Part shown: piece after piece, positions 42,878-57,586 of the stretch
Layout: every line of letters begins with the position of its first letter
Position numbering within the stretch: position 1 is the first letter of the stretch
Virus record (IMG/VR): IMGVR_UViG_3300025093_000011
Span: 49,199-113,198 of that record
DNA: 64,000 nucleotides
Origin: a virus
Reading direction: 5' to 3' (one strand)
The notes under the pieces: model-generated
Seen by the model: the letters and a program-made list of their open reading frames with translations, nothing else
Databases searched by the model: none
Told to the model about the DNA's origin: nothing
Program-made: the position numbers and the translations under genes

Positions 42878-44050
42878 TTACTTCACAGCCATTGCCACCA
42901 CCTTTTGATTTAACATTAGTTTTGAGAACTTAGCTTTATTACCATTTATGATTTCCTTAACCATATAGTATCTCAAATCATCAGTAAAGGCTTTACTATC
43001 TGTAGTTAATTGAACAAGTCTGTCAATCATCTTTTGAGGTATAGAACCTTTGCTAGCTTTAATTAAAGAATAGTTAATAATTCTAGTTGTAATTATACTA
43101 GATATATCAGCTCTGAATTCATCTCCTGTTCCAATACAAGAGTTTAAGCTTCCACTTACATATTCCCAATTATCATTTTCTAGAATTTGCTGAGGACTAA
43201 TAATCTTATCAAGTTGATTATTAATAAACATAGTAAACATGCTACTAAATTCATCTCCTACAGATCCTTCACCAATCATTTGAATTAGAGGTAATTGCTC
43301 TTCAAACTTTTCAATAGAACTGATAGAGTTAAAGAATGTAGTTACACTTCTAGGATTAACATCCTTACTAACTAGTTCAGGATGCATTAATAAGAAGTTA
43401 ATACATCTACCATCAATCTTTACAGTCTCAGCCCACTTAGCCCATACATCTGCATCAAACTTTACTGCAGTAGAAATAAATCTAGTTCTCTGAGCTGTAT
43501 CTAATGCTGTAACATTATAGTCACCATTGTCTGGATTAGTAGTAAGAAGTACATGCCAGTTCTTTGGAAGACTCCAAGAAATATACTCTTGTCTGTCAAT
43601 CAATTCCATAGTAGCTTGCATGAATCTATGGTCAGCTCTAGTATAATCATCTAATACTAAGAACCCACCTTCACCTTTACCTTGAATCCACTCAGGTGCA
43701 GCATGAGACATTCTCTTGTCTACAACTTTGTAACCTTTCTTCATAGCAACATCTACTTGAGCTTCATTTATCCAAGTAGTTTTACCATCTTTATTTTGAA
43801 TTTGGAATTCTTTAACAGGAAAACCAACAAGATCACCTAACTCCTCTATCTGTGATAAGTTAATCTTAACTACATCCATCTCAAGTTCTTCTCCTAATTG
43901 CATAATAGCAGAAGTTTTACCAAGACCAGCATCACCTTCAATATTTACAGCAACAGGAACTTTTCCTTCTGCTTGAATGTGCTGATTGTTTTTTACCATG
44001 TGCTTTAAAAAGTCTTTTAATTCATTAACGTTTAATTGTGTCTCACTCAT
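42878..44050 (-). CDS. MoxR-type AAA+ ATPase
   Basis: A 390-aa protein with Walker A GDAGLGKT (39-46), Walker B FLVLDD (130-135), and a sensor region WHVLLTTNPDNGDYNVTALD followed by RTRFIS as arginine-finger candidate. Early NLSQIEELGDLVGFP is typical of the MoxR branch, in which the ATPase works with a VWA-domain partner to remodel proteins or insert cofactors. The VWA partner is encoded 10 bases upstream. In a phage this pair may remodel a replication or host complex; the target is unknown. A terminator follows about 60 bases downstream. Confidence 0.9.
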   Translation of the reverse strand: MSETQLNVNELKDFLKHMVKNNQHIQAEGKVPVAVNIEGDAGLGKTSAIMQLGEELEMDVVKINLSQIEELGDLVGFPVKEFQIQNKDGKTTWINEAQVDVAMKKGYKVVDKRMSHAAPEWIQGKGEGGFLVLDDYTRADHRFMQATMELIDRQEYISWSLPKNWHVLLTTNPDNGDYNVTALDTAQRTRFISTAVKFDADVWAKWAETVKIDGRCINFLLMHPELVSKDVNPRSVTTFFNSISSIEKFEEQLPLIQMIGEGSVGDEFSSMFTMFINNQLDKIISPQQILENDNWEYVSGSLNSCIGTGDEFRADISSIITTRIINYSLIKASKGSIPQKMIDRLVQLTTDSKAFTDDLRYYMVKEIINGNKAKFSKLMLNQKVVAMAVK

Positions 44051-44060
44051 CTTTTTTAAT

Positions 44061-45272
44061 TTAAAGTTCTAATTTAATTTGTTTACCAGGCAAGCTTTCA
44101 TTATAACTGGATCTCTCCGATAATACCCAAAGTACTTGCTTCTTTGGTTTAATGTCTGTAAATGCTTCACCATCAGTGAAATATATAAGACTTGTATATT
44201 TATTATGCTCATTGTAATATTCAAGAACAGGGTTAAATTCAGTTCCACCTCTACCGGAAACTTCTAACTCAAATTTCCCATCATATTCTTTTATAGACTG
44301 TATTCTAGTATCACACTGTATAATTGTAATACTCACTCCACACTTATATAAATGATATATTTCATTCATAAACTCCTTTAACTCTTCATCTTCTACTGAA
44401 GCTGATGTATCAATTGCTAATAACATCTGTTGCCTCATCTTTATCTTAAGTCCGGGATTATCAGAAAATCTTCTATTCTCTTTTCTCCTCAACTTTCTAG
44501 TAAAGATCTTTGTACTTATACCTGTGAATCTTTTAATATATGCTTTCCAATTAAACTTAGGTGGAATAATCTCTTCTAGTTTAATTAAACCCTCAATCTC
44601 ACCTGGTATATAACCTCTCTTCTTAATTGTCTGTTCCTTAGCTTCAGTAAGAACTCTTTGAATTTGTTTTTCAATAAGTTTCTTTTCAGCTTCAGGCATG
44701 TCTTCAAACTCACCCCATGCATGATCAGGGATTTCTACATCACCTTTTTCATCTAGAGTAACTGTCATCTGACCTTGTTCCATACCATCAAGAACTTTAT
44801 CCATGTTCTTATCTCCACAAGTACCATTACACTTCTTATCTTCTTGAGCTTGTTTAAGCTGATCATAATAATATCTAGAACCAGCTCTCCTATCTAGATC
44901 AAGATCATCATAATCATCTATATCTATACCACCTTCAGGCAGCCAATCTTTAGATATATACTGATTAATCTCCATATCCATTGCAATATTAGCCAACTTC
45001 TTGTCTTCAAATAATTCAAAGGCAGTCAGGTGATTAAATGCAATATGAAGTAATTCATGTTTAAGAAGACCCAGTTTCTTGATATCTTCTAAACCTTGCC
45101 AAAATGTTTCATTAATAATCAACTGAAAATTAATTCCATTTTTACAAACTCCTGCAGTAGGAATTTTATCTTTTGTCCATACTTTATTTAACATAAGTAG
45201 AAAGAAACCATAGTATGGTTCCCTCAGCATCAGATCTTTTGATATTCTGCTTAACGAATCTTGTTTATTCAT
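44061..45272 (-). CDS. VWA-like protein with N-terminal zincin-type domain
   Basis: 403 aa. The N-terminal half carries HELLH (H72, E73, H76) and NIAMDMEINQ (about 95-104), the HExxH-plus-helix pattern of predicted metallopeptidase domains fused to VWA domains (DUF2201 type). The C-terminal half is a VWA domain with a MIDAS motif DTSAS (D288, S290, S292), a conserved GRGGTEFNPVLEYY segment and IYFTDGEA. It is the expected partner of the adjacent MoxR ATPase. Whether the zincin is active, and on what, cannot be told. It overlaps the upstream 126-aa gene by 8 bases. Confidence 0.9.
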   Translation of the reverse strand: MNKQDSLSRISKDLMLREPYYGFFLLMLNKVWTKDKIPTAGVCKNGINFQLIINETFWQGLEDIKKLGLLKHELLHIAFNHLTAFELFEDKKLANIAMDMEINQYISKDWLPEGGIDIDDYDDLDLDRRAGSRYYYDQLKQAQEDKKCNGTCGDKNMDKVLDGMEQGQMTVTLDEKGDVEIPDHAWGEFEDMPEAEKKLIEKQIQRVLTEAKEQTIKKRGYIPGEIEGLIKLEEIIPPKFNWKAYIKRFTGISTKIFTRKLRRKENRRFSDNPGLKIKMRQQMLLAIDTSASVEDEELKEFMNEIYHLYKCGVSITIIQCDTRIQSIKEYDGKFELEVSGRGGTEFNPVLEYYNEHNKYTSLIYFTDGEAFTDIKPKKQVLWVLSERSSYNESLPGKQIKLEL

Positions 45273-50765: not shown

Positions 50766-51479
50766 TTACCAAGTTAATGATAAATTATTATTTTCCAATA
50801 AAATTTTATTAGTTTTATTAAAGACATCATTACAATCCCACTTTTGACCTTTATTATATACAGCACTTGCTGGATGATTAACCATAAATTTATAGCTAGT
50901 ATCATTAACACACTCAGCCCAATCTTGGGCTTGCTTACCCATGTATATATAGATAAGTCCTGGATTATGCCAAGTTAACCAATCAAATACATATGCTAAG
51001 AAAGGTTTCCATATAGGAATATGTTGTCCTACTTTACCTACAGTAGTTGTAAGTGCAGTATTCAGTAATAATATTCCTTGATTAGACCATCTCTTAAGAT
51101 CTGGATCATGTGACTGACCAACACCATCATATACAGTTCTGTTAACTTCATCTAATATGAACTTCAAACTTGGTTGTTGCTTCATTGTATTACTACAACT
51201 AAATGCAATACCATCTGCTACTCCTAATTTAGGGTATGGATCTTGTCCTACTATAACAACTTTTAATTCATCATATGGACATTCTTCAAATGCTCTAAAT
51301 AATTGTCTAAGTGTAGGAGTAAATCTTTGATTATCTTTTGAATTCTTAATTAAATGTTTAATTATATTTTCAAAATCACTGCTAAATATAAAAGATTTAA
51401 GTATTCTAGACCAACCTGATGACTCTAGATTTTTAAATATTTTTTGTTTAATTTCATTAATATCAATTGTTTTAGTCAT
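50766..51479 (-). CDS. ung: Uracil-DNA glycosylase, family 1
   Basis: I choose the ATG at 51479 (MTKTIDINEIKQKIF, 237 aa); the longer frame would read through the upstream gene's promoter. Motifs: VGQDPYP (77-83) with catalytic-water Asp D80, GVADGIAFSCS, LLLNTALTT (137-145), and NHPASA at 201-206, a variant of the usual HPSPLS loop that retains His202. It removes uracil from DNA in base-excision repair, and in phages may protect against deamination damage. Last gene of the helicase operon. Confidence 0.93.
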   Translation of the reverse strand: MTKTIDINEIKQKIFKNLESSGWSRILKSFIFSSDFENIIKHLIKNSKDNQRFTPTLRQLFRAFEECPYDELKVVIVGQDPYPKLGVADGIAFSCSNTMKQQPSLKFILDEVNRTVYDGVGQSHDPDLKRWSNQGILLLNTALTTTVGKVGQHIPIWKPFLAYVFDWLTWHNPGLIYIYMGKQAQDWAECVNDTSYKFMVNHPASAVYNKGQKWDCNDVFNKTNKILLENNNLSLTW

Positions 51480-51495
51480 TTTTTTCTTAAGTTTG
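51467..51495 (+). promoter_or_regulatory. Bacteroidota-type promoter for the lone + strand gene
   Basis: TAAGTTTG at 51488-51495 matches the TAnnTTTG -7 box of Bacteroidota primary sigma-factor promoters, with TTG at 51467-51469, 18 bases upstream, as the -33 element. The ATG of the + strand gene follows 15 bases later, implying a very short leader. Confidence 0.55.
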
Positions 51496-51510
51496 TAAAA
51501 ATTAATAATT

Positions 51511-51855
51511 ATGAATAAAGAAGATTTAAAAAACAAAGTTATTAAAGATGATGCTTTAATTGACATTCAAGTTAATAAAACTTATTACATGATGTGCAAA
51601 GCTTCTTTATTTACTTTATTTAAAAATATTCATTCTCAATCTACAGAAAATGCTGAAGAGTTCATCAAAGAAGTTACTTCTAAAGGTTATGAAAACCTTG
51701 ATGAAACACAAAGAATATTCTATACTTTAACATTATTAGTAGGTGAAATAGAAAAGCAAGCTTTTAATAATAATCTTTTTGTAGATAAAAAAGATAATGA
51801 AAAAATTAAAGAAACTTTAGAAGAAGATTCTAAGGACAAATCTAGTGAAGATTAA
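51511..51855 (+). CDS. Lone + strand small protein within the - strand module
   Basis: 114 aa, ATG in AATAATTATG. The product is helical and charged: MNKEDLKNKVIKDDALIDIQ, then TYYMMCKASLFTLFKNIHSQ, ending in an acidic Lys/Glu tail (EEDSKDKSSED). No - strand gene covers this interval, and it has its own promoter-like sequence. It is divergent from ung (31-base spacer) and its end overlaps the convergent neighbour by 14 bases. Sharing the orientation of the late genes, it may be a late or separately regulated product. Function unknown. Confidence 0.8.
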   Translation: MNKEDLKNKVIKDDALIDIQVNKTYYMMCKASLFTLFKNIHSQSTENAEEFIKEVTSKGYENLDETQRIFYTLTLLVGEIEKQAFNNNLFVDKKDNEKIKETLEEDSKDKSSED

Positions 51856-53826: not shown

Positions 53827-54669
53827 TTAAAATATATATCTAATTGTATCTAAATCAAAGTACTGTGAGTAAAGTTCTTTAAACTCTTCAAGTAACCTTG
53901 TTTTGTGTTTAAGAGGATATCTCATTACACCTGATTTATTTTTAATCTCATAGCTCAGACTCATTAATTCTTTAGCTTGCCTGGAAGATCTTTTCATCTG
54001 ATTAGCATGATTAGTTAATGCAATTACCTCACATTTATTTTCTCCTGCTATATCTTTAACCATCTTAAACAACTCTCTGTAGTCTTCTTTCCATTTTTTA
54101 TAGAAAATAAGAGGACTATAATTAACGTGCACTTCCCACCCAAGGTTCTTAAGTCTATTAATCTCAGGTATTCTATCTGCAACCTTCTGCATCTTAGGTT
54201 CTAATACATCTGCAAATCTTTGTGGCATTAGACTAACTCTTACCCTTGGCTTTTTGTTAAACTTTTTAACATCAAGTTTCAACAAACTAGGATACTTAGT
54301 TGCCATAGTGCTATTAAGCTGCGGATGATTATCATATCTCTTAAGATAATCTATCAAAGGTTCAGGTAAATGTTTTTGCATTAGTACTAAATCACTATTA
54401 CATGCAATATCTACCATAGTATATATAGGATCCTGTTGATCAGGGACTTTGGTAAAACCTTTCTCCCATTCTACAACAGAATTAAATATATCATCTACAT
54501 TCTCATTAACAAAAACTCTCTTACCATTGTACCTAGACATATAACAATAGGTATCTACACAACCACCAAAACATCCATAGATAAGATTTGGTGCTATGCA
54601 GTTAGCACTATTGTTATTGTCTTTTGTAACTAAGGTCTTTGTTTTCTGAACTTTAATTACCCCACTCAT
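53827..54669 (-). CDS. Radical SAM protein related to spore photoproduct lyase
   Basis: 280 aa. Candidate iron-sulfur cysteines C33, C37 and C42 in GCFGGCVDTYCYMSRYN give the spacing CX3CX4C, wider than the CX3CX2C of classical spore photoproduct lyase. Downstream segments VRVSLMPQRFADVLEPKMQK, RIPEINRLKNLGWEVHVNYS and PLIFYKKW match the core strands of that family. Members repair DNA lesions or act on nucleotides using S-adenosylmethionine. In a phage it may repair or modify DNA. The substrate is not deducible. Confidence 0.75.
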   Translation of the reverse strand: MSGVIKVQKTKTLVTKDNNNSANCIAPNLIYGCFGGCVDTYCYMSRYNGKRVFVNENVDDIFNSVVEWEKGFTKVPDQQDPIYTMVDIACNSDLVLMQKHLPEPLIDYLKRYDNHPQLNSTMATKYPSLLKLDVKKFNKKPRVRVSLMPQRFADVLEPKMQKVADRIPEINRLKNLGWEVHVNYSPLIFYKKWKEDYRELFKMVKDIAGENKCEVIALTNHANQMKRSSRQAKELMSLSYEIKNKSGVMRYPLKHKTRLLEEFKELYSQYFDLDTIRYIF

Positions 54670-55910: not shown

Positions 55911-56195
55911 TTAATTTAATTTAGATAGATCTGCAGAATCTGTATTAATAAAATATTCTTCTCTATTTTCAATTTCAATATCAAATGGAAAAATTATAAA
56001 TCTTTCTGCATCATATGATTCATAGGGCATAGACTTTGAAGATAGTTCAACTTCTTTTAATAAAACCCCATACTTACCAGCCTGAAAACCTAATCTTACT
56101 ATACTTCTAACAGTATATACAACACCAGCTTCTATCCATTCCTCTTCAGGAATTTCAGGTGGTTTATTTTCATCATCAATACAAATTGCTTTCAT
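55911..56195 (-). CDS. Small beta-rich unknown protein, 94 aa
   Basis: MKAICIDDENKPPEIPEEEW, EAGVVYTVRSIVRL, AGKYGVLLKEVEL, then YESYDAERFIIFP. This pattern, a short SH3-like beta barrel, is common in Bacteroidota phages and genomic islands, but I know no function. It overlaps the ClpS-like gene by 20 bases. Confidence 0.75.
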   Translation of the reverse strand: MKAICIDDENKPPEIPEEEWIEAGVVYTVRSIVRLGFQAGKYGVLLKEVELSSKSMPYESYDAERFIIFPFDIEIENREEYFINTDSADLSKLN

Positions 56196-56436
56196 TCTCT
56201 AATTGTTCTATAGAAGCTTCAATATTTAATTCAGAAAATGTACTTACAATGTCATACATATCATCAAAGCTCCCTGATTTTATATCAACTTTACCAGTTG
56301 TATCTGCTATTATAGCACATTGCTCTGCTTGTATAGGAGTATGGTTACATAATCTAACTAAGCAGGACATTATATATTGAAACGAATGATTATCATCATT
56401 ATATAAAGTAACTTTATGTGTTTTCTCTATTGCCAT
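56176..56436 (-). CDS. ClpS-like protease adaptor
   Basis: 86 aa that align without gaps over the ClpS core: HKVTLYNDDNHSFQYIMSCL, then CNHTPIQAEQCAIIADTTGK. The conserved N-D-D of the substrate pocket is N13-D14-D15. ClpS hands proteins with destabilising N-terminal residues to ClpAP/ClpCP. The pocket His of E. coli ClpS (H66), 30 residues past NDD, is D45 here, so classical N-degron recognition may be changed. Close resemblance to Bacteroidota ClpS suggests capture from a host. It could redirect or block host Clp proteolysis (inference). A terminator separates it from the helicase gene downstream. Confidence 0.85.
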   Translation of the reverse strand: MAIEKTHKVTLYNDDNHSFQYIMSCLVRLCNHTPIQAEQCAIIADTTGKVDIKSGSFDDMYDIVSTFSELNIEASIEQLENESNLY

Positions 56437-56452
56437 TATAATATAATATACT

Positions 56453-56483
56453 AAAAAAGGCTGAGAAAATGAAGACTCAGCCT
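56453..56483 (-). terminator. Intrinsic terminator overlapping the helicase stop
   Basis: On the - strand: AGGCTGAG, 10-base loop, CTCAGCCT then TTTTT. The left arm includes the stop codon of the SF2 helicase gene. The strong 8-bp stem and U-tract mark the end of that transcription unit. Confidence 0.8.
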
Positions 56484-57586
56484 AGGTTTATGTTATAGTT
56501 TGACCACACTATTTTGGAATCATCAAAAGTATTTAAGGCCTCTTTGACCCACTTTTCATCAACAGTTCCTGTATAGCATAGTATATGAATTATTGCTTTC
56601 TCATCAGGATTTAATCTCAATAGTCTACCAATTCTTTGGGCAGACTTTCTTTCATTACCATATGCATGCATAATAATACCTTGTCTTAATTCTGGTATGT
56701 TTACACCTTCATTTAACTGCAATACGGCTGATAGTTTTTTAATTAAACCTGACTTGAACATTTCTAGATTAGATTCTGATTCATCATTACCACTGTGATA
56801 ACTATGACTGACTAATCTATCTGCTTGATCTTTTGTATTAGCAAACACAATACATTTATCATTGATTGCTTCCAAAAGTTTCTTGGTGTATTTCTCTTTA
56901 CTAGGATACTCCATCATGGCTTTCATTCTCATAACTCTCATCATATGAGAACCTTTTCCAGTAGAAGTATCTATTCTTGTACCCCAATAGTTATAGTTAT
57001 TAAGTTCACTAGTTCTAAATGATTTATTTTTAGTCTGAACTAAATAATTTGATTTAGTTCCTAAACTTAACTCATGAACTATAATTTGATAATCATTAAG
57101 AATATTATTTTCTACTGCATTATCAGTAACAAACTCATAAACTATAGGACAGAATTCATTCACAAGTTGACCCTTCTCAAACTTTGTACTTTTAGGTTTA
57201 GTACCTGTTAATCCAAGTATTTTACCGTTATAGTTATCTAAAAAGGCTCTGTGTGAGTTTAATAGGCTATGACATTCATCTAGATAGATTATATCATAAT
57301 CTTTAGGATTCTGCTTTACAAGGCTCCTATATGTTGTAAAGGTTACATTGTTTAATAAGTTTTCTTTATCAAACTTTTTAGCTTCAGCTCTCCAGGAGTC
57401 AAATAATACAATCTTTGGAGCTACTACAAGTACATTAAGTAGTGGTGAATAGTTATATTCTAAATGTTTTAAAGCAACAAGTGTTTTACCTACACCGGTT
57501 GCTAAACCTATACCACATCTTTCTTTACCTTGAGTAGCTTTTAAAGCTTCTTCTTGGACACTGTCCCTGTTAACTACTGCTTCCAT
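56477..57586 (-). CDS. SF2 helicase, DECH-box
   Basis: 369 aa. Motif I ATGVGKT (29-35), motif II DECH (103-106), motif III LTGT (126-129), IVFANTKDQADRLV in the second RecA domain, LNEGVNIPELRQGI (motif V) and motif VI QRIGRLLR (317-324). The compact RecG/UvsW/SNF2-like superfamily 2 layout suggests a DNA helicase or translocase in recombination-dependent replication or repair, as crAss-like phages usually encode. It overlaps the 76-aa gene upstream by 17 bases and ends in a terminator. Confidence 0.9.
   Translation of the reverse strand: MEAVVNRDSVQEEALKATQGKERCGIGLATGVGKTLVALKHLEYNYSPLLNVLVVAPKIVLFDSWRAEAKKFDKENLLNNVTFTTYRSLVKQNPKDYDIIYLDECHSLLNSHRAFLDNYNGKILGLTGTKPKSTKFEKGQLVNEFCPIVYEFVTDNAVENNILNDYQIIVHELSLGTKSNYLVQTKNKSFRTSELNNYNYWGTRIDTSTGKGSHMMRVMRMKAMMEYPSKEKYTKKLLEAINDKCIVFANTKDQADRLVSHSYHSGNDESESNLEMFKSGLIKKLSAVLQLNEGVNIPELRQGIIMHAYGNERKSAQRIGRLLRLNPDEKAIIHILCYTGTVDEKWVKEALNTFDDSKIVWSNYNINLG

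Follow-up and report, generated by a model that had tools for sequence, protein, structure and literature searches.

The open reading frame at positions 56176-56436 on the minus strand of the DNA analyzed here encodes a ClpS core, the N-recognin fold. In bacteria, ClpS selects short-lived proteins according to their first amino acid and uses its N-terminal extension to pass them to the protease. This DNA (the window, 64,000 nucleotides) covers bases 49199-113198 of a virus record that is 113198 bases long. The protein belongs to the ClpS fold family but lacks the N-terminal extension expected of a delivery adaptor and is changed at the ClpA-contact positions. The explanation that we tentatively favor is that it serves as an N-degron decoy or blocker, which might grip N-degron proteins or the Clp N-domain without handing anything over. 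New here is the existence of more than 100 distinct ClpS sequences in a crAss-like phage group, in which the gene is almost always present and always in the same place.

Identity and architecture of the phage protein

The predicted protein matches the Pfam ClpS profile (PF02617) with an E value of 2e-11 and 44 bits, compared to a cut-off of 23, and it scores below the NCBIfam ClpS equivalog cut-offs. A preliminary description of this DNA had reported a gap-free alignment to the ClpS core. This holds for the first three quarters of the protein, where residues 4-65 align with profile positions 3-64 across 62 ungapped positions, but not beyond, where E. coli ClpS has about six additional residues (model residues 1-79 correspond to chain residues 23-106). 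An AlphaFold2 model built with 32 relatives in the alignment has a mean pLDDT of 90.6 and presents its elements in the E-H-H-E-H-E order of ClpS. The top 38 Foldseek matches in the PDB are all ClpS, and several of these structures have bound N-degron peptides. With VIA, M. smegmatis ClpS matches at Z 14.8 (76 residues at an rmsd of 1.1), and the ClpS-like domain of yeast Ubr1 (Z 9.7) and ribosomal L7/L12 (Z 9.6) score lower. Because the model is of this quality and the leading structural matches are exclusively ClpS, the homology is not due to chance, and the original assignment of this 86-residue product as a phage ClpS homolog is confirmed.

Two residues of the amino-group site, Asn and Asp (N34 and D35 in E. 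coli), are retained as N13 and D14 and are followed by D15. The third, His (H66 in E. coli), is missing, and the ungapped offset of 21 to the E. coli protein places D45 in its column. On these points the preliminary description had read the sequence correctly. An independent contig (L002) that encodes an 86% identical protein also has Asp, and D45 is therefore not a sequencing error. Comparison of these two genes gives a dS of 0.67 and a dN of 0.07 (dN/dS of about 0.11), which indicates that clpS is under purifying selection. The disordered N-terminal extension that in a delivery adaptor enters the ClpA pore is missing, since only 12 residues precede the ND motif and the open frame holds no ATG, GTG, or TTG codon further upstream. 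Furthermore, the residues aligned with the E. coli ClpA contacts E79, E82, and K84 are D58, Y61, and I63, such that charge is kept at the first position only.

Table 1. The clpS-like gene, its notable codons, and its neighbors (window coordinates)
Feature	Position	Strand	Evidence or remark
clpS-like gene, 86 aa	56176..56436	-	Pfam ClpS 2e-11; AlphaFold2 pLDDT 90.6; Foldseek/VIA ClpS matches, Z 13-15; dN/dS ~0.11 vs L002
D45 codon GAT (E. coli H66 column)	56302..56304	-	Sequence, translation, column statistics
N13-D14 codons	56395..56400	-	No variation among 101 phage and 73 Bacteroidota sequences
H17 codon (E. coli T38 column)	56386..56388	-	His likewise in human UBR1 and Leptospira ClpS1
Short N-terminus, 12 residues ahead of ND, with phage-conserved KTHK motif	56401..56436	-	Host ClpS has an N-terminal extension here
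C-terminal tail ENESNLY, residues 80-86	56179..56199	-	Not in the Bacteroidota ClpS examined; pLDDT <50 at residues 83-86
SNF2-type helicase, gene immediately upstream of clpS	56477..57586	-	phrog_16, 4.5e-41
94-aa ORF downstream of clpS, 20 nt overlap	55911..56195	-	No family match; in 102 of 106 clpS loci

The same architecture is seen in nearly all of the phage family. The median distance from the start codon to ND is 12 residues in the phage proteins versus 28 in those of Bacteroidota, and in 132 of 167 phage records even the most upstream ATG that could serve as a start stands precisely 12 residues ahead of ND. Most members also have a seven-residue C-terminal tail, ending for example in ESNLY or ESHMH. 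Four relatives (L247, L248, L250, and L251) keep an extension of 24-28 residues and have host-like ends with no tail. The extension-bearing relatives that were tested branch apart from the main clade, which has 92 members, on a tree with a midpoint root and long branches for several of these rows. This placement suggests that phage clpS is a captured host gene that later lost its extension.

The binding pocket has fared differently from the parts that serve delivery. In the phage proteins, variability is lower at the pocket columns than elsewhere in the core (mean entropy of 0.85 versus 1.49 bits), with N13 and D14 present in all 101 sequences and A41 in 99. The columns corresponding to E79, E82, and K84 are mostly variable or hydrophobic. 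The delivery parts are thus consistently changed in this family, and the pocket is not. Bacteroidota ClpS proteins likewise show little conservation of this contact triad, and so its absence from the phage proteins says little about docking. By these comparisons, the lost extension is a more telling change than the pocket Asp.

It is natural to look first to the host Clp machinery as the target of a phage ClpS, and in this the preliminary description was right. In E. coli, the ClpS extension passes into the ClpA channel, and delivery of N-degron substrates is inhibited if it is kept from doing so (PMC9663308). When the extension is truncated, ClpS itself is no longer degraded (PMC12974527). 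The missing extension, a feature that had gone unmentioned in the preliminary description, favors an inhibitor or decoy over an adaptor. Very short extensions, as Hou et al. are said to have found in 2008, do not support delivery in E. coli. Taken together, the conserved pocket, the lost extension, and the changed contact positions point to a decoy or blocker as the most likely role.

It is somewhat unlikely that the protein is instead an active adaptor, which would supply the host Clp protease with N-degron proteins or other substrates despite the missing extension and so add targets chosen by the phage. The absence of the extension and the changes at positions matching the E. coli ClpA contacts argue against this role. 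However, the need for an extension is known from E. coli ClpA, and the ClpA or ClpC of Bacteroidota may differ in this respect, which weakens the case for a blocker and leaves room for an adaptor. The conserved pocket could equally serve delivery, and the Bacteroidota genomes that have related ClpS proteins also have Clp N-domain ATPases and L/F-transferase. Moreover, an adaptor role has been suggested for the ClpS proteins of jumbo phages (PMC7824862), and that of Vibrio phage 2.275 also has no extension, so the architecture recurs.

Aspartate at the pocket-His column

The preliminary description had regarded the change from His to Asp as the key functional event, which in its strongest form would mean that Asp kills N-degron binding and that a pure Clp blocker remains. 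The distribution of Asp does not support this view. Of 101 distinct phage sequences, 64 have His in the H66 column, 34 have Asp, two have Asn, and one has Lys. A second set, drawn by the presence of the neighboring SNF2 gene, yields 54 His, 23 Asp, and one Glu. At least 13 state changes among His, Asp, and Asn are required at this column on a tree of the SNF2 gene. The Asp lineage represented by the window has two members and is nested in a well-supported group of ten, the other eight of which have His. This nesting makes it unlikely that Asp was acquired from a Ferruginibacter-like donor.

Cellular proteins also exhibit this residue. Most Bacteroidota ClpS proteins carry His, and Asp is found in Ferruginibacter and other Chitinophagaceae. 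In three such genomes, the Asp-type protein is the sole ClpS. It is the only ClpS of Ferruginibacter paludis, where its gene lies directly upstream of aat, which codes for L/F-transferase, the enzyme that makes N-degrons. The same arrangement occurs in genome G097, and clpS and aat are near each other on the same strand in genomes G002 and G003. The Asp-type clpS and aat neighbors span positions 5438-6606 of L389 and 4634-5651 of L390, from F. paludis and a second Bacteroidota genome. The preliminary description had named close host ClpS proteins with Asp and normal function as evidence that would refute its proposal. ClpS proteins with Asp do exist in Chitinophagaceae, and their gene context suggests normal function.

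More distant proteins extend this pattern. Leptospira ClpS1 has Asp62 at the pocket-His position (PMC12493166), and D233, H236, and D264 of human UBR1 align with D14, H17, and D45, although this match is weak (E 0.9). The class of ClpS-like N-domains to which that of UBR1 belongs reads type 2 N-degrons (PMC4447728). On the basis of these alignments, the pocket His does not seem to be strictly defining for ClpS. Because Asp is recurrent in phages and is present in cellular ClpS, Leptospira ClpS1, and UBR1, it is by itself no sign of lost N-degron binding, and the idea that it is unique or disabling was rejected.

The proposal that Asp kills binding is the least supported of the four readings considered, and we regard it as quite improbable. 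There is a structural rationale for it, as ClpS structures show the pocket His in contact with the alpha-amino group (PMC12493166). In addition, the ClpS proteins of phages GAP32 and Atu_ph07 have Lys and Glu at this column, so the contact can drift in phages. Nevertheless, Asp occurs in the sole ClpS of Ferruginibacter beside aat and in UBR1, and most of the phage relatives keep His, which means that the function of the family cannot depend on losing it.

His17 accompanies Asp in 27 of 34 sequences and His in 16 of 64 (raw counts), which recalls the pair found in UBR1 and Leptospira. A coupled change of H17 and D45 is not significant once relatedness is allowed for (five independent pairs, median p 0.5), and this potential coupling is offered as a lead only.

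clpS as a core gene in one crAss-like group

The virus record can be assigned to the crAss-like phages because of its terminase and replication genes. Its TerL and portal proteins match PHROG families, and the best tblastn matches of TerL are crAss-like genomes such as cr55_1, at 25% identity. PHROG and profile searches of the record also reveal PolA, primase, an AAA ATPase, a DnaB-like helicase, and an SNF2 helicase, which is the replication gene set described for crAss-like phages (PMC7886860). A megablast search with window positions 40000-64000 found no match among deposited genomes, and by these sequence comparisons the phage is crAss-like and distant from deposited genomes. Giant ORFs of up to 3862 aa are present, and simple searches for the RNA polymerase DxDxD motif, a mark of the giant transcription proteins of crAss-like phages, returned no match.

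Several other genes of the window deserve mention. The ORF at 50766-51566 carries the GQDPYP motif that is typical of uracil-DNA glycosylases, and its PHROGs match is solely to a family of unknown function. The product of 53827-54669 (minus strand) resembles spore photoproduct lyase (PF20903, 1.2e-18). Its presumed iron-sulfur Cys motif, CFGGCVDTYC (Cx3Cx4C), is common to 10 of 45 phage relatives, and the rest of the 45 have the usual Cx3Cx2C form (e.g., CLYNCSYC). At 42878-44050 and 44061-45272 (minus strand), an AAA ATPase (phrog_1297) adjoins a VWA-like or metallopeptidase-like protein (DUF2201), and this pair resembles a MoxR-VWA chaperone pair.

The surroundings of clpS are nearly constant. 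Of 106 distinct clpS loci, 100 have the SNF2 gene and 102 have the 94-aa ORF. When 80 loci were drawn by SNF2, a choice that does not presuppose the presence of clpS, the gene was found within 45 nt downstream of SNF2 in 78, and it is therefore a core gene in this crAss-like group. It is not a general crAss gene, as no clpS is annotated within 3-4 kb of SNF2 in FpV4, phi14:2, DAC15, or cr106_1. Searches by tblastn with the window protein and a Flavobacterium ClpS located ClpS of this type in only three deposited phage records. Three huge phages of 635-642 kb (L029, L030, and L031; LR756504, LR756502, and LR745206) encode a ClpS of Bacteroidota type that retains the pocket His and has an N-terminal extension like that of host proteins. 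No phage-encoded Clp ATPase or L/F-transferase was found in the 113 kb record, which is possibly incomplete, and a PADLOC search gave no match to an anti-defense family.

This constancy can also be taken to mean that the ClpS fold has been repurposed for a new phage or host partner that is unrelated to Clp, perhaps in the replication module. Such a role is unlikely in our estimation. Its contacts would be formed by the KTHK motif, the A24/C25 face, and the C-terminal tail, and it would account for the phage-specific conservation of H7, K8, Y21, A24, and C25, which are variable in host ClpS. The tail itself and the fixed position of the gene between SNF2 and the conserved 94-aa ORF are likewise consistent with this possibility. 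However, the core of the N-degron pocket is still invariant, and synteny by itself is no proof of a physical partner. Given its conserved adjacency, the 94-aa ORF is a candidate partner of the clpS product.

A proposed decoy or blocker in relation to known ClpS systems

If the phage protein is indeed a decoy or blocker, then its history and action might be as follows. A ClpS core would have come from a Bacteroidota ClpS and become established among the core genes of the crAss-like group. This core would probably still recognize proteins by the N-terminal residue, given that its pocket is conserved and that the replacement of His by Asp at the amino-group contact resembles that in several other ClpS-type domains. 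Having lost the extension that ClpA pulls on to release cargo, and with the E. coli-type ClpA docking positions changed, it could occupy N-degron substrates or the N-domain of the Clp ATPase without delivery. Phage proteins or selected host proteins might thereby be shielded from ClpS-ClpAP/ClpCP turnover. Here we infer N-degron binding, the partner, and the direction of the effect. The fold, the conserved pocket, the status as a core gene, and the low dN/dS are compatible with this mechanism, as is the E. coli precedent for inhibition when entry of the extension is blocked; the poorly conserved contact triad of Bacteroidota ClpS weakens the argument from the changed contact positions.

Should this mechanism prove correct, the decoy would be a viral anti-N-degron protein derived from the host's own adaptor. 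In its boldest form, a core without its extension would capture N-degron proteins or the Clp N-domain and thereby shut down the N-degron pathway of the infected host, and its gene would be a fixed part of the core gene set in a widespread crAss-like group. This form is possible, if somewhat doubtful. The family makes possible a clear test of whether a phage uses ClpS for delivery or for stopping delivery. Likewise, when the jumbo-phage forms are included, the residue at the amino-group contact can be His, Asp, Asn, Glu, or Lys, a natural series for examining how ClpS-type domains read N-termini.

Phage ClpS proteins were already known from jumbo phages (Iyer 2021). The statement in the preliminary description that no characterized phage ClpS was known needs to be amended, given that PA5oct, Phosso, GAP32, and other jumbo phages have annotated clpS genes (PMC7824862, PMC6102473). 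It holds in the sense that our literature search found these proteins described by annotation only, with no biochemistry, and it turned up no publication about ClpS from crAss-like phages. For the jumbo-phage proteins, which have also been reported elsewhere (PMC6102473), a role in presenting targets to host ClpAP has been suggested (PMC7824862). Those of PA5oct, Phosso, Atu_ph07, GAP32, and Vibrio phage 2.275 are phage-encoded like the window protein, but they are of Proteobacteria-type sequence and mostly have longer N-termini. Their pocket-His column includes Asp together with a short N-terminus in Vibrio phage 2.275 (L262), Glu in Atu_ph07 (L261), and Lys in GAP32 (L264).

Leptospira interrogans ClpS1 offers a partial parallel to a decoy or blocker. 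This protein binds ClpA (Kd of 0.44 uM) and reduces the ATPase activity of that enzyme, and it also inhibits the degradation of ssrA substrates (PMC12493166). Like the phage protein, it has Asp (Asp62) in place of His and also has His34 in the specificity pocket, which resemble D45 and H17, respectively. Unlike the phage protein, it is cellular and keeps a 22-residue N-domain (PMC12493166), and so it is no direct model for a core that has no extension. The ClpS-like N-domain of UBR1/Ubr1 is part of a eukaryotic ubiquitin ligase and is distant in sequence.

The nearest cellular relatives of the window protein are Bacteroidota ClpS proteins, with 35-50% identity in the best segment. Representatives from Flavobacterium and Ferruginibacter have the ND, QAEQCA, and GK...(K)xG motifs in common with the phage core, and they already differ from E. 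coli ClpS at M40 (Phe) and M62 (Ala). The differences lie at the two ends, where the Bacteroidota proteins have their longer lead (median of about 28 residues) ahead of ND and finish near LSAEI, whereas the phage proteins have 12 residues and the seven-residue tail.
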